Below the pieces are notes generated by a model that had not been told where the DNA came from, did no database searches, and saw only the letters and a list, made by a program, of their open reading frames with translations. A stretch of 64,000 nucleotides of DNA from Intestinimonas massiliensis (ex Afouda et al. 2020) (GTDB lineage Bacteria; Bacillota; Clostridia; Oscillospirales; Oscillospiraceae), in the NCBI RefSeq assembly GCF_001244995.1, contig NZ_LN869529.1, forward strand, positions 565,454 through 629,453, in the 5' to 3' direction. Numbering within the stretch: position 1 is the first letter of the stretch; each line of letters starts with the position of its first letter. This document shows positions 1-42,902 of the stretch, piece after piece. The translations under genes were made by a program, and so were the position numbers.

Positions 1-27
1 GATGGTTAAGACCAGCGTAGGGAAGCA
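1..27 (+). promoter_or_regulatory. 3' end of a TPP (THI-box) riboswitch
   Basis: The first bases contain the THI-box hallmark ACCAGCGTAGGGAA, preceded by TGGTTAAG, which pairs with ACCA as in the 3' half of thiamine pyrophosphate aptamers. The 5' half (the CTGAGA box) would lie before the window. A terminator hairpin follows about 35 bases later and then ykoF, the usual layout for TPP-dependent termination of thiamine uptake genes. Confidence 0.85.
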
Positions 28-61
28 ATTCGAACAGAACGACATGATTTGTTTGTGGCCA

Positions 62-100
62 AAAGAGTGCTTTTTCACGTGAAAAAGCACTCTTTTTATT
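62..100 (+). terminator. Riboswitch expression-platform terminator
   Basis: A perfect 17-bp inverted repeat (arms 62-78 and 79-95) is followed by a T-rich run. It lies between the TPP aptamer and ykoF, so it is probably the conditional terminator that stops transcription when thiamine pyrophosphate is bound. Confidence 0.85.
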
Positions 101-130
101 TTTGCCTGATGAAAGAAAGGAAGATGTGCA

Positions 131-760
131 ATGCAACAGGAAGGCTGCGGCTGCCAGCGGGAGGACCTCCCCTGGTCCGGGCGGGGCACCAAGCTGGATA
201 TCTCCGGCTGCCGGTTCTCCCTCTATCCCATGGACAGCGATTTTGTCTCCATCATTTTGGGGGCGCTGGAAAAGACCGACACCTCGGCGGTGTGGAGCCA
301 GTCCGACGCCCTGTCCACCGTCTACCGCGGACGGCTGCCCTACGTGGCCGACGCGGTGAAGGGGCTGTTTATCAACGCCTGGCGGCCGGGCGTCCACATG
401 GCGCTGGAGGGGCAGTTCTCCAAGGGCTGCCCGGGCGACTGCGACGGGGACAGCCTGCTGGACCGTCAGGGCCCAGCGCCCAACCAGGCGCTGGCGGCGG
501 AGCGGCACTTTCCCGTGCTGTGCAAGCTGGCCCTGTACCCCATGGGGGTGGGGGACTACATCGACCAAATCGCCCAGGTCTGGCGCATGGCGGAGGACGC
601 CGGTCTGGCCCCCGTCACCATCCACTATGCCACCCGCATCTCCGGCGACGTCCACCAGGTGTTCGACTATCTGGAGGCGGTCTGCCGCCGCATGGAGGAG
701 ACCGTCCCCCACTACATCCTGCATTTCACCCTGTCCGTCAACAGCCCCACCCAGGAATAA
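131..760 (+). CDS. ykoF: YkoF family HMP/thiamine-binding protein
   Basis: A 209-residue soluble protein of the YkoF family, which binds thiamine and its pyrimidine precursor HMP and accompanies the YkoEDC ECF transporter in Bacillus. The length is typical, and two related halves are visible (CRFSLYPM near residue 27 and KLALYPMG near residue 135). No signal peptide or membrane segment is seen, so it should be cytoplasmic. The ATG at 131 was chosen because it follows the riboswitch terminator and a GAAAGGAAG site. It is the first gene of a tight operon (ykoE starts 19 bases after its stop) and is expected to be repressed by thiamine pyrophosphate through the leader. Family assignment is firm; the exact ligand here is inferred. 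Confidence 0.9.
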   Translation: MQQEGCGCQREDLPWSGRGTKLDISGCRFSLYPMDSDFVSIILGALEKTDTSAVWSQSDALSTVYRGRLPYVADAVKGLFINAWRPGVHMALEGQFSKGCPGDCDGDSLLDRQGPAPNQALAAERHFPVLCKLALYPMGVGDYIDQIAQVWRMAEDAGLAPVTIHYATRISGDVHQVFDYLEAVCRRMEETVPHYILHFTLSVNSPTQE

Positions 761-779
761 CGAGAGGAGAAGATCCATC

Positions 780-1367
780 ATGAACGAGAAATACGGCTGG
801 AAGCTCCAGGAGATCATCCTGGTGGCGATGCTCTGCATCGTTTTCGGCGTCGTCTATCTGGCGGGGGTCTATCTGGCCTCCTTCCTCAGCACCCTGCTCA
901 CCCCCGTCGGCCTGGCCCCCCTGGCCAACGAGCTCGTCTTCGGCGTGTGGTTCATGGCCTCCACCCTGGCCGCCTACATCCTCCAGAAGCCCGGCGCGGC
1001 CATCGTGGCCGAGGTGCTGGCCGCCCTCATTGAGGTGCTGCTGGGCAACATGTACGGCCCCATGGTCATCGTGGCCGGCATCATCCAGGGCGCCGGCGGC
1101 GAGATCGTCTTTGCCGCGGGCGGCTACAAGAAATTCGACCGCAGGATGGTTTGCCTGGCCTCGGTTGGCTGCTGCATCACCAGCTTTTTGTGGAGTTTTG
1201 TCCGCTCCGGCTACGGCAAGCTGGCCGTTCCCCTGCTGGCGGTGATGTTCCTCATCCGGCTGGTCAGCTCGCTGATTTTCTCCGGCGTCCTCAGCAAGGC
1301 CATCGGCGACGGGCTGGCCCGCACCGGACTGCTCAAGGGCTACGCCCTGGGCCGGGCCCATGCCTGA
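780..1367 (+). CDS. ykoE: ECF transporter substrate-binding component YkoE
   Basis: A 195-residue integral membrane protein with about five or six hydrophobic segments, matching the YkoE S-component that captures HMP or thiamine in energy-coupling-factor transporters. ATG 780 follows GAGAGGAGAAG, a good ribosome site. Its 3' end overlaps ykoD by 8 bases, which suggests translational coupling. It would work with YkoD (ATPase) and YkoC (transmembrane coupling) and with the YkoF binding protein. The family call rests on membrane pattern, size and gene order, which together match the Bacillus ykoFEDC operon. Confidence 0.9.
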   Translation: MNEKYGWKLQEIILVAMLCIVFGVVYLAGVYLASFLSTLLTPVGLAPLANELVFGVWFMASTLAAYILQKPGAAIVAEVLAALIEVLLGNMYGPMVIVAGIIQGAGGEIVFAAGGYKKFDRRMVCLASVGCCITSFLWSFVRSGYGKLAVPLLAVMFLIRLVSSLIFSGVLSKAIGDGLARTGLLKGYALGRAHA

Positions 1368-2829
1368 GCCGCTGCTGGTCGGCCGGGAACTGACCTTCCG
1401 CTATGGAAAGCAGTCGGCTCCCATCTTTTCCAACCTGTCTCTGACGGTGGAGGAGGGAGAGACGGTGCTGCTGATGGGGCCCTCCGGCTGCGGCAAGTCC
1501 ACCCTGGCCTACTGTCTGGCGGGGCTCTACCCCGAGTATGCCGGCGAGCTGGCGGGAACGGTCCGGCTGGCGGGACGGCCGCTGGAGTCCTATGGGCCGG
1601 CGGCCCGGGCACGGACGGTCTCCATCCTCTTCCAGAATCCGGACAACCAGTTCTGCATGGACCGAGTGGACCATGAGGTGCTCTTCGCCCTGGAGAACAT
1701 CAACTACCCCGGCGACCTGCGGGCCCGGATGGACGAGCTGCTGGAGCTGGCGGGCCTGAGGGAGCTGGCCCAAGCCCCCATTCGCACCCTGTCCGGCGGC
1801 ACCAAGCAGAAGCTGGCCCTGTGCACCGCGCTGGCCACCGGCGCAAGGCTGCTCATCCTGGACGAGCCCTTCGCCAACCTGGACCCGGCCTCCTGCGCCC
1901 AGCTCTCCGCCCAGCTCCAGGCGCTCAACCGGCGGGGCCTGACCCTGCTGGTGGTGGACCACCGGCCCGACTGGTGGCGGAGCTTCCTGACCCGTGTGGT
2001 GCTGATGGAGGACAAAGGAAATCTGGATGCAGGGGCGTTCCCTCCGTCGGAGCTGGAGGCCCGCCGGGAGGCGCTCACCCGCCGGGGCCTGTTTCTGGAC
2101 GACGGCTGGCTCAACGGGCGGAGACCGCCCGCGGTGCCCCGGCCGCCGGAGACGGCGGCGGAAGCGGAGGATCTGGCGCTGTTTCACGCCCGGGAAAAGA
2201 AGCCCTGTCTGGAGCACCTCTCCTTCCGGCTGGAGAAGGGGAGCGTTACCGCTCTTATCGGCCGCAACGGGGCGGGTAAAACCACTCTGCTCACCGCCTT
2301 GGCCGGGGTGGGCCGCCACAGAGGAAGGCTCCGGGTGGCTGGGCGGGTCGGGCTGGTCTTTCAGAACCCCCGCTTCCAATTTCTCACCCTGACGGTGGAG
2401 GAGGAGGTCCTCACCACCCTGCGCGCCGCCCGGCCCCAGGCGGCGGAGGAAGCGCGGGCGGCGGAGGCCGAGGCCCTGCTGGGAGAGTTCGGCCTGCTGC
2501 CCTGGCGGAAGCACTCCCCCTATGAGCTGAGCCAGGGACAGCAGCGGCGGCTGGCCCTGCTGTCCATGCTGGCGGGGGAGCAGTCCCTGCTGCTGCTGGA
2601 CGAGCCTACCTACGCCCAGGACGAGCGGTCCACCCGCTTCATCCTGGACCTGCTGGAGCGGCGGGTGGCGGAGGGACTCACCGCCGTGCTGGCCACCCAC
2701 GACCTGGCGCTGGCCCGGGCCTGCGCCAATCAGATCCTGCTGCTGGAGGACGGACGCCTGACCACTCTCGCCCCAGCGGAGCTGGACGCCTATGCCGCCG
2801 AGAGGAGGATGCCGTCATGCGAAGCCTGA
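1360..2829 (+). CDS. ykoD: ECF transporter double ATPase YkoD
   Basis: A 489-residue protein with two ABC nucleotide-binding domains in one chain. The first has Walker A GPSGCGKST near residue 41, signature LSGGTKQK and Walker B LLILDEPFANLDP. The second, from about residue 260, has GRNGAGKTT, signature LSQGQQRR and LLLLDEPTYAQD. This fused arrangement is typical of YkoD/EcfA-type ATPases powering vitamin uptake. It overlaps ykoE at the start and ykoC at the end (13 bases), so the transporter subunits are co-translated. The catalytic residues look intact. Confidence 0.93.
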   Translation: MPEPLLVGRELTFRYGKQSAPIFSNLSLTVEEGETVLLMGPSGCGKSTLAYCLAGLYPEYAGELAGTVRLAGRPLESYGPAARARTVSILFQNPDNQFCMDRVDHEVLFALENINYPGDLRARMDELLELAGLRELAQAPIRTLSGGTKQKLALCTALATGARLLILDEPFANLDPASCAQLSAQLQALNRRGLTLLVVDHRPDWWRSFLTRVVLMEDKGNLDAGAFPPSELEARREALTRRGLFLDDGWLNGRRPPAVPRPPETAAEAEDLALFHAREKKPCLEHLSFRLEKGSVTALIGRNGAGKTTLLTALAGVGRHRGRLRVAGRVGLVFQNPRFQFLTLTVEEEVLTTLRAARPQAAEEARAAEAEALLGEFGLLPWRKHSPYELSQGQQRRLALLSMLAGEQSLLLLDEPTYAQDERSTRFILDLLERRVAEGLTAVLATHDLALARACANQILLLEDGRLTTLAPAELDAYAAERRMPSCEA

Positions 2830-3530
2830 ATCCCGGCTATAAGCTGCTCACGCTGATTTTGGCCTCCCTGCTGCTGTCGGTGACCTTTCGCACCCGGCTG
2901 AATCTGCTGACGGCGGGGCTGGCGCTGCTGGTCACCTTCTGTACGCCCGGTGTCCGCCGGCGGAACCTGCTGCTGGCCCTGATCCCTTTTTTTCTGACGG
3001 CGGCCGGCATGTTCACCACCGGCCTGTTCTTCTCCAACGGCGGGCAGGAGGGGGTGGAGGTAACGCTGCTGGGCCAGCGGACCCTCTACGCCACCAACCT
3101 GACCACCGCCGCCCAGCTCGCCTCCCGGGTGCTGGCCTTCGGCGGCCTGGGGATGCTCTTCGCCTTTACCACCGACTCCATGGAGCTGATTATGAGCCTG
3201 ATGCAGCAGTTCCGCCTGCCGCCCAAGTTTGCCTATGGCATCCTGGCAGCCTACCACTTCTTTCCGGTGGTCAAGGAGGAATACGCCGTCGTGGGGGCGG
3301 CCCTACAGGTGCGGGGTGTCAAGGCGGGCCTCTGCTCCACCAGACGGCTGTTCCCCATGCTGGTCCACGCCCTGGAGCGTTCGGAGAGCCTGGCCATGGC
3401 CATGGAGTCCCGGGGCTTTGAAAGCGGGAGCCCCCGGGCGGTGGCGTTTCGGGTGGAGCTGCGCCCGGTGGATTTCCTGTTTCTCTTCGGACTCAACGGC
3501 GCGCTGCTCGCCGGACTCATTCTGCTGTGA
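2817..3530 (+). CDS. ykoC: ECF transporter transmembrane component YkoC
   Basis: A 237-residue EcfT-family membrane protein with hydrophobic segments near residues 10-30, 40-60, 90-110 and at the C terminus. It carries the EcfT-type coupling segments, seen here as the ESLAMAMESRGF stretch near residue 188, which contacts the ATPases. It starts inside the end of ykoD. It completes the YkoFEDC HMP/thiamine uptake system. The gene after it starts 17 bases downstream in the same direction. Confidence 0.92.
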   Translation: MRSLNPGYKLLTLILASLLLSVTFRTRLNLLTAGLALLVTFCTPGVRRRNLLLALIPFFLTAAGMFTTGLFFSNGGQEGVEVTLLGQRTLYATNLTTAAQLASRVLAFGGLGMLFAFTTDSMELIMSLMQQFRLPPKFAYGILAAYHFFPVVKEEYAVVGAALQVRGVKAGLCSTRRLFPMLVHALERSESLAMAMESRGFESGSPRAVAFRVELRPVDFLFLFGLNGALLAGLILL

Positions 3531-3546
3531 GAAAGGAGACGCGTTC

Positions 3547-4776
3547 ATGATTGCGGCCAAGCGGGGGGAGTGGGCTCAGGCCTGCGCCGACTACCCCGAC
3601 CTGTCCCCCTTCACCCTGCTCAAGCTGAGCATGGTGCGCTACGGCGCGGAGCTGAGCCGGGGCGCGCTGGAGCGCCTTCAGGACCCCCGCTATTCCTTCG
3701 GGCAGACGGAGCCCTTCGGCATCCGCTTCGAGGGCCGAGCCCCCGCCCTGGCCCTGCCCGGCCCCATCCTGCTGCGGGACGGCTCCTTTGTCTACATCAA
3801 CTACGGGGAGCGCTTTGACGACCCCTACCGGATCGACTACGACCGGGACAGCGGCGTGTTCCTGCTGCGGGAGGGGGAGGAGACCCTGGAGGAGGTGGAC
3901 TTCGTGCCCCGGCCCGCCTTCTTTGGGAAAAAGACCAGCCGGGGCACCCCCATGGAGATGCTGGCCGACGTCCGGGCCCAGAAGCTGATTCTCACCGCCT
4001 TCCAGCGGTGCCGCCTGTGGGAGGGAGGCGACCAGTGCCATTTCTGCGCCTTCTTCACCGACGGCCGCAGCCAGGGGGAGGTGGACGGTCAGGACATCTA
4101 CGAGACCGTGCGGGAGGCCATCCGGGAGCCCGGACGCTTTTCGGAGATCTACCTCTCCGGCGGTACGGATTTCAGCGGGGACCCGCCCTTTGCGGCCGAG
4201 GCGGAGCGCTACATCCGGGTGCTCCAGGCCGTCGGGCGGAACTTCTCCGGCCGGTTCTCCAGCCAGCTCATGGCTCCCGCCTATCCAAAGACGCTGCTCC
4301 GGCGCATTTACGATCAGACCGGGGTGACCTCCTACTGTCCCAACATCGAGGTGTGGGATGCGGCCATTTTTAAGGAGCTATGCCCGGGAAAGGAGAAATG
4401 GGTGGGCCACGCCGAGTGGGTCCGCCGGACCCTGGACGCGGTGGAGATCTTCGGGAAAGGGCAGGTGTGTACCCAGGTGGTGGGCGGCGTGGAGCTGGCC
4501 GCCCGAAACGGCTTTGCCACCGTGGACCAGGCCCTGAAATCCAACTTTGAGGCCTGCGAATTCTTCGCCCGGCACGGGGTCAGCTACCTCAGCGTTCTCT
4601 GGCACCCCCACAAGGCCTCCCGGCTGGGGTTCCGGCCCCTGCCGCCGCTGGACTACTATATCCGGCTGGCCAAGGGCCTCCACGAGATCCGGCGGGACTA
4701 CGGTTTGACCTCCACCAACGACGACTACAAGCACTGCGGGAACCACCCCGACAGCGATCTGGAAAGGTTGGATTGA
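3547..4776 (+). CDS. Radical SAM enzyme of unknown reaction in the thiamine/HMP operon
   Basis: A 409-residue protein. The likely iron-sulfur ligands are C155, C164 and C167 in CRLWEGGDQCHFC, a Cx8Cx2C spacing instead of the usual Cx3Cx2C. A GGTD segment (LSGGTD) follows where the SAM-binding GGE motif is expected, and NIEVW fits a later core strand. About 150 residues precede the cluster, with no recognised domain. No B12 domain or C-terminal SPASM cysteines are obvious. ATG 3547 has AGAAAGGAG upstream. It sits 17 bases after ykoC in the riboswitch operon and 1 base before the next gene, so it probably acts on, or is controlled by, thiamine or its pyrimidine. It faintly recalls the radical SAM proteins of nitrilase (Nit1C) clusters. 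The reaction is not known to me. Confidence 0.75.
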   Translation: MIAAKRGEWAQACADYPDLSPFTLLKLSMVRYGAELSRGALERLQDPRYSFGQTEPFGIRFEGRAPALALPGPILLRDGSFVYINYGERFDDPYRIDYDRDSGVFLLREGEETLEEVDFVPRPAFFGKKTSRGTPMEMLADVRAQKLILTAFQRCRLWEGGDQCHFCAFFTDGRSQGEVDGQDIYETVREAIREPGRFSEIYLSGGTDFSGDPPFAAEAERYIRVLQAVGRNFSGRFSSQLMAPAYPKTLLRRIYDQTGVTSYCPNIEVWDAAIFKELCPGKEKWVGHAEWVRRTLDAVEIFGKGQVCTQVVGGVELAARNGFATVDQALKSNFEACEFFARHGVSYLSVLWHPHKASRLGFRPLPPLDYYIRLAKGLHEIRRDYGLTSTNDDYKHCGNHPDSDLERLD

Positions 4777-4777
4777 T

Positions 4778-5269
4778 ATGCTGCGACTGCCTGGAAAGAC
4801 CCCGCTCCCAGCGGCGGCCGCCGGCGGGCTGGAGAAGGCGGACTGCCGCAGGCTGCTCCAGGTCCCGGGGGCGGCGGCAGGGGAGCGGCACGCCTTTTTG
4901 TGCCCCTCTCTCACCAGCCTGAACGGCGTGACGCTGGCCCTGAGCCTGCCCCAGGAGCGGACGGAGCTGGGCCGGGGGCTGGTTCGCGGGCTGTGGTTTG
5001 ACCAGCCTCTCACGCTGTGGCTGTGCGGAGCGGGGACCACCCTGCGGGCACGGGCGTGGGCCTACCGCTGCCACATTGCCGGTCCGGCATTTACCCGCCT
5101 GTTGGCCCGGGCCAGGGAGGCGGACCCCGCCGGCGACATCGCCTGCGCCTGGGAGCTGCTGGCGGAGGAGTGGCGGGAGACGGGGGAGCTCCCTCCGGCC
5201 CCCGAGCCGCTGCCGGACGGCCCGCCGGAGCTGCACCTGGATCACCCGCTGTTGCACACAGACCGATGA
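4778..5269 (+). CDS. Unknown protein at the end of the thiamine/HMP operon
   Basis: A 163-residue protein that I do not recognise. It is rich in Ala, Leu and Pro, with no signal peptide or convincing membrane helix. Recognisable features are a TSLNGVTLALSLP segment near residue 45 and a CHIAGPAF stretch near residue 95 followed by a charged helical region ending in AWELLAEEW. It begins 1 base after the radical SAM stop codon, so it is surely in the same transcript and may be a partner or accessory of that enzyme. A long hairpin closes the operon just after it. Confidence 0.7.
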   Translation: MLRLPGKTPLPAAAAGGLEKADCRRLLQVPGAAAGERHAFLCPSLTSLNGVTLALSLPQERTELGRGLVRGLWFDQPLTLWLCGAGTTLRARAWAYRCHIAGPAFTRLLARAREADPAGDIACAWELLAEEWRETGELPPAPEPLPDGPPELHLDHPLLHTDR

Positions 5270-5271
5270 AG

Positions 5272-5310
5272 ACAGCCCGCCCCCGCGCCTATGGCGCGGG
5301 GGCGGGCTGT
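5272..5310. terminator. Long GC-rich hairpin between convergent genes
   Basis: A perfect 18-bp inverted repeat (5272-5289 and 5293-5310) with a 3-base loop lies between the converging thiamine operon and the LytTR gene. Neither side has a good T-run, so it may be a weak or factor-assisted terminator serving both strands. Confidence 0.6.
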
Positions 5311-6772: not shown

Positions 6773-7098
6773 TACCGGCTGATACCGGGCCTGCCCGGCC
6801 CGGCGCAAAGCAAGGCCGCGCTAGTCGGGGAGTTAGCGGTGCCCTGTACCTGCAACCCGCTACAGCAGGGATGAACCCCGGCCCCCGGAACTGCATTGTG
6901 TCGTCTGCCCCAGGCAAGTAGTGATGATAGATCGGTCCCGCGCAACGGGAACCCGTGAACCATGTCAGGCGGGGAACCGAGCAGCATTAAGCGGAACCTC
7001 CCGTGTGCCGCGGGGGCGCCGTTCTTGAGCCAACTGCCCGGGTAACGGACATAGCGCAGCATTTCAAAGGTCGGTGTGCGGCCTTGCTTTGCGCCGGA
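6773..7098 (+). ncRNA. ffs: Large signal recognition particle RNA (4.5S/scRNA)
   Basis: The transcript has the hallmarks of Gram-positive large SRP RNA. The 5' (6799-6819) and 3' (7078-7097) ends pair over about 20 bases to close the molecule. An Alu-like 5' domain with GTGCCCTGTA and GCTACAGCAGGG follows. The conserved S-domain helix 8 region appears as GTCAGGCGGGGAACCGAGCAGC near 6965. The mature core is probably 6799-7097, about 300 bases; the exact 5' end after processing is uncertain. Its position directly upstream of dnaX is the same as in Bacillus. Confidence 0.93.
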
Positions 7099-42635: not shown

Positions 42636-42902
42636 CAAAAACGCCCCCGACCGTTGTTACGGTCAGGGGCGTATGATACGCGGTACCACCCTGATTCGGC
42701 CGCCGGTCACCCGGACAGCCCTCGTCAGCCTCCAACAAGGCTTTGGCCGGTAACGGGGCCGGACGTCCCGCCCTACTCGCGTTCAGGCGGACAGCTCAGG
42801 GGCCAGTATGCACCTGGAATCACCGCGCCGGTTCGCACCCACCACCGGCTCTCTGAGCGGGACGCACAGGTCTTGTTCCCTTCCTCGCTTTTGCTAATAT
42901 TG
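42636..42902 (-). promoter_or_regulatory. T-box riboswitch upstream of leuA
   Basis: On the minus strand, TCAGGGTGGTACCGC (42680-42694) is the T-box. The terminator stem (about 42641-42673) with a T-run follows it. AGAGAG of stem I is near 42850. By-eye folding pairs TGTGC with GCATA and places CTG (42804-42806 complement), a leucine codon, at the edge of the following loop; this specifier is tentative. The gene it controls makes leucine, so leucine tRNA sensing is expected. Confidence 0.88.

Follow-up and report, generated by a model that had tools for sequence, protein, structure and literature searches.

A ykoFEDC operon under a TPP riboswitch that also encodes a radical SAM protein and a predicted FMN-type partner: a tentative role in thiamine supply

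The window, by which we mean the whole stretch of 64,000 nucleotides analysed here (Intestinimonas massiliensis, contig NZ_LN869529.1, positions 565,454 to 629,453), opens inside a TPP riboswitch and continues into an operon of six genes:

1 to 40, + strand: 3' end of a TPP aptamer (RF00059), which as a whole spans window positions -60 to 40 (G000:C7:565394-565493)
61 to 96, + strand: intrinsic terminator of the riboswitch, a 16-pair stem followed by a T-rich tail
131 to 760, + strand: ykoF, soluble thiamine/HMP-binding protein with two YkoF domains (PF07615, 3.7e-55, two stretches; solved YkoF chains 1s7h, 1s99 and 1sbr)
780 to 1367, + strand: ykoE, S component of a group I ECF transporter (PF09819; PDB 5edl; residue comparison)
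1360 to 2829, + strand: ykoD, double ATPase (PF00005, two stretches)
2817 to 3530, + strand: ykoC, T component (PF02361, 4.6e-22)
3547 to 4776, + strand: radical SAM gene, 409 aa (Cx8Cx2C at C155, C164 and C167; NF045502; fold match; family alignment and tree)
4778 to 5269, + strand: p163, predicted FMN split-barrel-type partner, 163 aa (AlphaFold, Foldseek, fusions)
5272 to 5310, + strand: perfect 18-bp inverted repeat, read directly from the sequence and adjoining the 3' end of the last gene

The initial annotation read the first 100 nucleotides as the end of a THI box and a terminator heading a ykoFEDC operon, and this reading is upheld. When the sequence is extended upstream, as that annotation suggested, Rfam finds the whole aptamer with 64 bits against a gathering score of 54.3, which places it in RF00059; an Rfam scan of the window alone yields no TPP aptamer because only the 3' end falls inside. 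Our scan gave 4 terminator-like sites versus 3.3 expected, and the 16-pair stem is by far the longest of them; the RNA fold of aptamer and terminator together has a z-score of -3.66. All four ykoFEDC products belong to their families, with PF07615, PF09819, PF00005 (in two stretches) and PF02361 above cut-off. The inverted repeat possibly marks the end of the operon, with the T tract absent on this strand.

The fifth gene had been described as a radical SAM enzyme with Cx8Cx2C spacing, and the motif, CRLWEGGDQCHFC, is indeed present. The protein matches no Pfam family at E≤1, and it belongs to the NCBIfam family NF045502 (variant_rSAM), with 179.5 bits against a cut-off of 125. Its AlphaFold model (pLDDT 85.4) has the partial TIM-barrel fold and gives 17 Foldseek matches at E≤0.001, the best of which is lipoyl synthase (9.7e-7, TM 0.42 by query); MTAB (9a6d), a radical SAM methyltransferase, RlmN, BlsE and HydG are among the others. 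By its superfamily membership, the protein would be expected to cleave SAM reductively.

Several more specific identities can be set aside. ThiC is ruled out, since the protein lacks PF01964 along with every other Pfam family at E≤1, and so are ThiH and the other named radical SAM equivalogs, since at E≤1 the only NCBIfam matches are NF045502 and TIGR04043; the protein does not belong to the latter (MSMEG_0568 family), where it scores 54.5 versus 303.7 bits. The protein thus matches no named thiamine family in Pfam or NCBIfam, as the initial annotation had supposed in setting it apart from ThiC and ThiH. Sequence matches in the PDB to retinol-binding proteins (E 0.28 and 0.019) are chance. The cysteine spacing is likewise no sign of a special function: the three-cysteine cluster motif occurs in all 27 aligned rows (18 from the window's own clade, T; 7 from its sister clade, S; 2 paralogs), with a spacing of x8 or x9 and then x2, and Cx8Cx2C is shared by two distant paralogs, while five of the seven sister-clade genes have Cx9Cx2C. 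Among the members scanned, the top NF045502 score (467 bits) belongs to one paralog, P_L073, which is 24% identical to the window's protein.

The sixth gene had been said to match nothing, and this is so for Pfam and NCBIfam (no match at E≤1) but not for the fold. By sequence, p163 has 0 matches among solved structures. Its AlphaFold model (pLDDT 91.3) matches an FMN-binding protein at 1.4e-5 as well as HupZ and PNPOx-like chains, and the 32 PDB matches at E≤0.001, mostly named FMN-binding, PNPOx-like, HupZ, PhdC or F420-binding, agree on a split barrel. On this model p163 is predicted to be an FMN-type split barrel and would bind a flavin. The PNPOx model PF01243 leaves p163 itself unmatched, and thus outside that family, and it matches two of three scanned S-clade partners weakly (26.1 bits in L074 and 18.5 in L073, cut-off 28.1). 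In L019 and L092 the partner is fused to the radical SAM protein.

The initial annotation had proposed counting how often the pair co-occurs with ykoFEDC or TPP riboswitches, and had held that homologues lying mostly outside thiamine contexts would speak against a thiamine role. Among 19 related loci, ykoFEDC lies upstream in 15 and a TPP aptamer is present in 16, all 15 ykoFEDC loci included; the first of these counts should not be read as a rate for the whole family, because the pattern-based search for relatives reaches close relatives only. A p163 gene or fused copy is found in 15 of the 19 loci; the exceptions are L024 and L026, which end within the radical SAM gene, L025, which is broken, and L020, in which none was found. 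Contigs titled Lachnoclostridium, Diplocloster, Gemmiger, Fournierella, Merdimonas, Pseudoflavonifractor and Collinsella carry these genes in the same order, as does one titled Synergistaceae, apart from the last gene, which was not found there. Recurring as it does on contigs with very different names, the linkage of ykoFEDC, TPP aptamer and radical SAM gene is real and beyond chance. Homologues do lie mostly outside thiamine contexts in the wider family, though not in the nearest clade: three T-clade loci (L011, L022 and L023) keep the pair with neither ykoFEDC nor a TPP aptamer at the locus, in genomes that have ThiC and ThiE, and seven S-clade genes sit at loci without a TPP aptamer. In class samples of 391 genomes, apparently one draw used for both searches, the radical SAM protein was found at E≤1e-40 in 3 (the window's genome aside, all S clade) and YkoF in 13, three of them with two matches; no genome in these samples except the window's had both. 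Our literature searches found no work joining radical SAM with ykoF, and the papers on TPP riboswitches, radical SAM and thiamin were, judged by title, on other subjects.

The sister clade offers a view of the same two-gene module in another setting. S-clade radical SAM proteins are 31-38% identical to the window's, and their partner is homologous to p163 (hhalign, 98.8% probability). The six S-clade pairs (L072-L074 and L093-L095) adjoin SsuABC-like, sulfonate-type importers in five loci and MetK-like genes, so named by sequence appearance, in three. Three positions separate the clades: W270, Q310 and C337 are invariant in 18/18 T rows, and are L, G and A in 7/7 S rows. As a separate observation, the paralog P_L096 adjoins nitrogenase-like and MetK-like genes, again by appearance; the Pfam NifH test was applied in L073 only.

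We searched the host genomes for ThiC, ThiE, ThiG, ThiN, thiamine pyrophosphokinase (TPK) and ThiT. In the window's genome ThiC, ThiE, ThiN and full-length ThiG were not found; TPK is present, and of its two TPP aptamers one precedes the ykoFEDC operon and the other thiT, the second TPP-controlled gene. With this set of genes, no known route would let the organism use free HMP. Across the 14 genomes that carry the ykoFEDC-radical SAM operon, ThiC and full-length ThiG were each found in 0/14, full-length ThiE in two (G149, where it lies in a cluster downstream of a TPP aptamer, L098; and G160), TPK in 14/14 and ThiT in 12/14; ThiN was found in 0/20 genomes searched, these 14 included. Partial ThiG matches above the Pfam cut-off, in seven operon genomes, are tentatively taken for related barrel proteins. 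By known routes, therefore, HMP would be a dead end in 12 of the 14 operon genomes, the window's own among them. Loss of ThiE is nevertheless no mark of the radical SAM gene, because two of three YkoFEDC genomes that lack that gene also lack full-length ThiE (G323 with no match, G507 with one weak match; G426 has it). Nor do ThiT and YkoFEDC together prove a second substrate, since the B. subtilis control was positive for both YkoF and ThiT.

The transporter itself bears on what is imported. With contact positions as given in PMC5037267, the pyrimidine contacts W49, E77 and Q95 of YkoE are retained in 16/17, 17/17 and 17/17 operon rows, and the thiazole contacts Y46 and D131 are each altered in 16/17; position 131 also varies in four rows free of the radical SAM gene (N, T, N, D). 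YkoF is described in PMC5627462 as binding the HMP moiety, without residues for the thiazole. B. subtilis YkoE is reported to bind thiamine at about 4.5 nM, and changing D131 or Y46 to Ala to weaken binding just 2- to 5-fold (PMC5037267), so that YkoFEDC here may simply import thiamine.

The explanation that we consider best, with a probability of about 0.44, is that the radical SAM protein and its FMN-type partner make thiamine from a derivative of it that bears the pyrimidine and enters through YkoFEDC. It draws on the TPP aptamer, the conserved operon, the two fusions, the folds predicted for both proteins, and the genes of TMP synthesis that were not found. When TPP is scarce, the riboswitch would permit read-through transcription, and YkoFEDC would import a molecule recognised chiefly by its aminopyrimidine half. 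The two proteins would act as a single two-protein enzyme, in which a 5'-deoxyadenosyl radical would cleave or re-form a bond on the thiazole or bridge side and the flavin-type protein would donate or accept electrons; TPK would then make TPP from the thiamine produced. Chemistry at a C-S bond is a first guess, because sister-clade genes lie in clusters of organosulfur type. The import substrate, the reaction, the binding of flavin and the order of the steps are those that we infer.

The main rival is that YkoFEDC imports thiamine itself, and that the pair has a TPP-controlled side role such as disposal of toxic or damaged analogues or repair of oxidised thiamine. We judge this rather unlikely, and yet the presence of both YkoF and ThiT in B. 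subtilis and the mild effects of the YkoE alanine changes have raised our confidence in it and lowered that in the conversion of a derivative. It also agrees with the thiamine binding of B. subtilis YkoE, with the listing of 'YkoEDC2' among B1 transporters in a survey of gut genomes (PMC6593275, Table 1), with the two genomes that have YkoFEDC but neither the pair nor full-length ThiE, and with the three T-clade loci that keep the pair without ykoFEDC alongside ThiC and ThiE; Nudix clearance of oxothiamin and oxythiamin (PMC5627462) is a precedent. ThiT in 12 of the 14 operon genomes would make a second thiamine importer redundant, a point blunted by B. subtilis, and switching off by TPP would fit supply better than detoxification.

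The initial annotation had suggested another role, the salvage or conversion of a pyrimidine precursor brought in by YkoFEDC; here the pair would yield HMP or HMP-P, from which thiamine is then assembled. One such precursor could be pyrimidine-methanesulfonate, which arises when sulfite cleaves thiamine, and which the pair would desulfonate as the sister clade might do with sulfonates. The retained pyrimidine and altered thiazole contacts of YkoE, the binding described for YkoF, the sulfonate-type importers of the sister clade and the full-length ThiE of G149 and G160 are all in keeping with such a role. It fits poorly with the gene counts: HMP would be unusable by any known route where full-length ThiE was not found, as in the window's genome and eleven other operon genomes; neither ThiN nor ThiC was found in any of the operon genomes, and TPK was found in all. 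We regard it as quite improbable. Less probable still is that an organosulfur compound serves the pair as a source of sulfur, which is what we presume for the sister clade, and that its adjacency to ykoFEDC is secondary; the SsuABC-like importers and MetK-like genes beside S-clade pairs point that way, but the operon is headed by a TPP aptamer and no SAM aptamer, the link to ykoFEDC recurs on contigs of very different names, and the T clade has invariant residues of its own.

Conversion to thiamine can be taken further, into an account that we hold to be unlikely as a whole: the pair was recruited from an anaerobic C-S-cleaving module and makes thiamine from modified or damaged thiamine, delivered by a re-tuned YkoFEDC, in bacteria lacking ThiC, ThiE and ThiN, and the sister pairs beside SsuABC-like importers are nitrogenase-independent anaerobic desulfonating or dealkylating enzymes. 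Gut bacteria without ThiE are counted as thiamine-only users in PMC6593275; if the conversion is real, such counts overlook a growth source. Should the pair convert another vitamer, YkoFEDC would be mis-annotated in these hosts. Conversion would, besides, be a first lead to the function of this radical SAM family, including its relatives in sulfur-type clusters.

This radical SAM protein and its partner are not known from B. subtilis. In its four genes and in being controlled by a THI box, the ykoFEDC operon of that species agrees with the window's (PMC5037267), and the window's YkoF and YkoE match solved chains; B. subtilis differs in having ThiC and ThiE, as our search controls showed, and in its YkoE, whose Y46 and D131 are altered in the window's operon. 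With NF045502 the radical SAM protein shares a variant cluster motif and a score above the curated cut-off, although the name is a domain-level one ('radical SAM protein') that carries no reaction. The predicted fold of p163 resembles that of PNPOx-like FMN split-barrel proteins, from which it differs in having no Pfam match and in the C-terminal HLD or HLE motif conserved in its family. IsrBHDK isethionate reductase and methylthio-alkane reductase are nitrogenase-like systems in which the role of radical SAM is called unclear and in which, as described in PMC11423573, a radical SAM gene works with an SsuABC importer in anoxic organosulfur assimilation. The nitrogenase-like and MetK-like neighbours of the paralog P_L096 recall such systems; the window's operon has no nitrogenase-like genes, and the likeness to IsrB/MarB is by description only. 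Another comparison is with the S-clade pairs, in which the same two-gene module is found and SsuABC-like importers, with MetK-like or methionine/cysteine genes, take the place of ykoFEDC and the TPP switch.

The left end of the window holds the 3' part of a TPP riboswitch and a terminator. Downstream of the terminator stand six genes, separated by short gaps or overlapping, in the order ykoF, ykoE, ykoD, ykoC, a 409-residue radical SAM gene (here rSAM) and a 163-residue gene (p163). The riboswitch end, and behind it ykoFEDC with two further genes, had been read in the initial annotation and are confirmed here, with the following elements:

-60 to 40: TPP riboswitch aptamer, whose first 60 bases precede the window so that its 3' part alone lies inside (64 bits; gathering score 54.3)
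61-96: terminator, a 16-pair stem followed by a T-rich tail
5272-5310: perfect inverted repeat of 18 bp

A scan restricted to the window sequence does not list the aptamer. The terminator scan gave 4 sites where 3.3 were expected, with only 5 pairs at each of the others, and the RNA of aptamer and terminator folds more stably than its shuffled versions (z -3.66). Elsewhere in the window we note a large bacterial SRP RNA (RF01854, 200 bits) at 6816-7081, directly 5' of a gene that is DnaX-like by appearance, and a T-box leader (RF00230, 97.7 bits) at 42662-42894 on the minus strand.

The linkage of rSAM to ykoFEDC and TPP riboswitches holds in most of the 19 loci collected by a pattern-based scan: ykoFEDC lies 5' of the rSAM gene in 15, and 16 have a TPP aptamer, namely those 15 and L025 (7905-9296, Absicoccus porci). 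At L025 the radical SAM gene is fragmented and runs into a YkoE-like end, but the aptamer, ykoD and ykoC are kept. Three loci, L011 plus L022 and L023 from Omnitrophica, have neither ykoFEDC nor an aptamer. The partner protein, separate or fused, occurs in 15 of the 19; those without a counted partner are L024 and L026, which end within the rSAM gene, the broken L025, and L020, where a partner gene was looked for and none was found.

At E≤1, Pfam assigns zero families to the rSAM protein. NCBIfam places it in NF045502 (179.5 bits, cut-off 125), a domain model named no more specifically than 'radical SAM protein'; TIGR04043 is excluded (54.5 of the required 303.7 bits). The cluster motif, CRLWEGGDQCHFC, has the Cx8Cx2C spacing originally reported. 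We rejected this spacing as a special feature: it is also found in the distant paralogs P_L073 and P_L096, and 5 of the 7 sister-clade genes described below have Cx9Cx2C. The predicted structure (pLDDT 85.4, from a 14-row alignment) matches radical SAM enzymes, with lipoyl synthase on top (9.7e-7).

The p163 protein had been said to resemble nothing known, and at the level of sequence families this stands, with no match in Pfam, in NCBIfam or, searched as a profile, among solved sequences; it does not extend to the fold, which is predicted to be an FMN-type split barrel. The model (pLDDT 91.3) matches 32 solved chains at E≤0.001, led by an FMN-binding protein of Desulfovibrio and including HupZ and PNPOx-like proteins. 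Since a p163 homologue is fused to the rSAM C-terminus in L019 and L092, the sequences argue for a physical pairing of the two proteins.

In a tree of 27 rSAM rows rooted on the two paralogs, the window's gene falls in the T clade (18 rows, support 92/96), mostly from aptamer and ykoFEDC loci and with the Omnitrophica pair as first branch; its sister is the S clade (7 rows, support 87/77); neither split earns a star from the tree program, and the branch of T_L092 is long. All 18 T rows share W270, Q310 and C337, which are replaced by L, G and A respectively in all 7 S rows. At the Omnitrophica loci (L022:443-9429, L023:4563-13555) the T-clade pair adjoins two NMT1/THI5-type binding proteins and a LUD-domain protein, together with a gene uniting MFS and ABC permease domains (neighbour families tested in L022); both genomes contain ThiC and ThiE.

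Among 392 genomes from the order to which G149 belongs, G149 counted, six match rSAM at E≤1e-40. The TPP-type operon accounts for two of them (G149, and G576, the source of L092), three are of S-clade type (G909 with two pairs, G926, and G694 with an internal stop) and one is a paralog (G733). Of the 4 matches in a class sample of 391 genomes, one is the window's own genome and three are S-clade. Among the kin of the window's genome the operon has a sporadic distribution, since only 6 of 149 relatives match, its own genome counted, and the other five do so at 25-28% identity.

We searched 17 genomes for thiamine genes, namely the window's genome and 16 source genomes of the loci (those of L024, L025 and L026 not included); 14 carry the ykoFEDC-rSAM operon. 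ThiC occurs in three, which are precisely the genomes whose locus has no ykoFEDC. ThiE matches in eight at E≤0.001 and is full-length in only five, two of which, G149 and G160, also have the operon; the matches in G150, G152 and G153 are weak and partial. ThiG is full-length in G163 only. Partial ThiG matches above the Pfam cut-off in eight other genomes (at most 31.8 bits; seven are operon genomes) are taken, without proof, for related barrel proteins, and the window's genome gives 20.9 bits, under the cut-off. TPK is present in 15 of 17 genomes and in 14/14 with the operon, ThiT in 13 of 17 and in 12/14; ThiN has no match among 20 genomes (the 17 and three others). At E≤0.001 the TPP aptamer is found twice in the window's genome (99.38% complete): before this operon and 5' of thiT (L002:842-1618).

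The pyrimidine-precursor (HMP) route of the initial annotation fits only 2 of the 14 operon hosts, the others lacking full-length ThiE, and imported HMP has no known use in the window's genome. Most likely, we suggest, the radical SAM protein and its putative flavoprotein partner turn a pyrimidine-bearing thiamine derivative, its putative substrate, imported by YkoFEDC, into thiamine, which would then feed TPK. The main rival is that YkoFEDC imports thiamine directly and the pair serves repair or detoxification. Host gene content does not decide against it: ThiE loss is no proof of a cargo other than thiamine, because full-length ThiE is also missing from two of the three YkoFEDC genomes without rSAM, nor is the presence of ThiT, because the B. 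subtilis control matches both YkoF and ThiT.

According to PMC5037267, B. subtilis YkoE contacts the pyrimidine through W49, E77 and Q95 and the thiazole through D131 and Y46, and Ala changes other than W49A lower thiamine binding only 2- to 5-fold. The 17 operon-associated YkoE rows retain the pyrimidine contacts (W in 16, E in 17, Q in 17), with Phe at position 46 in 16 rows and Ser (14), Gly (2) or Asp (1) at position 131; in the four rows without rSAM the residues are F, Y, Y, Y at 46 and N, T, N, D at 131. With the pyrimidine contacts kept and positions 46 and 131 changed, the operon-associated rows hint weakly at a ligand with a pyrimidine but an altered second half. YkoF, according to PMC5627462, apparently holds the HMP half only. 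Among open-access papers, at the level of titles, we found none joining radical SAM with ykoF or, in this sense, with TPP riboswitches; any claim of novelty is therefore limited to that search and the family libraries.

That the pair converting such a derivative may perform C-S bond chemistry is an idea taken by analogy from the surroundings of the S clade, whose genes occur as the same rSAM and partner pair. SsuABC-like importers adjoin it in 5/6 loci (called by NCBIfam and Pfam in L073 and L074, by likeness to L074 in L093-L095), and a gene that is MetK-like by sequence appearance does so in 3/6. At L072 the pair adjoins methionine-cycle genes, likewise named by appearance; SAM riboswitches, adjoining other genes, flank it on both sides there and lie downstream of it at L073. 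By hhalign, the S-clade partners are homologues of p163 (98.8%). Scored with the S-clade profile, the Omnitrophica partners reach 95 and 91 bits and no other T-clade partner exceeds 26.5, so the former look intermediate. Nitrogenase-like genes near S-clade pairs (L072-L074, L093-L095) are recognised in L073 only, the other loci being judged by eye. These S-clade pairs, rSAM with an FMN split-barrel-type partner, are candidate enzymes of anaerobic organosulfur assimilation. In Rhodobacter capsulatus, as described in PMC11423573, isethionate assimilation involves a nitrogenase-like enzyme together with a radical SAM protein whose role is called unclear. The paralog P_L096 adjoins nitrogenase-like and MetK-like genes, both by appearance. 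In the NF045502 paralog clusters (L096:7717-12639, L073:1009-6240) there are NMT1-type binding proteins together with nitrogenase-like genes, which were identified by Pfam (NifH) in L073 and by appearance in L096; these clusters resemble those of isethionate reductase or methylthio-alkane reductase.
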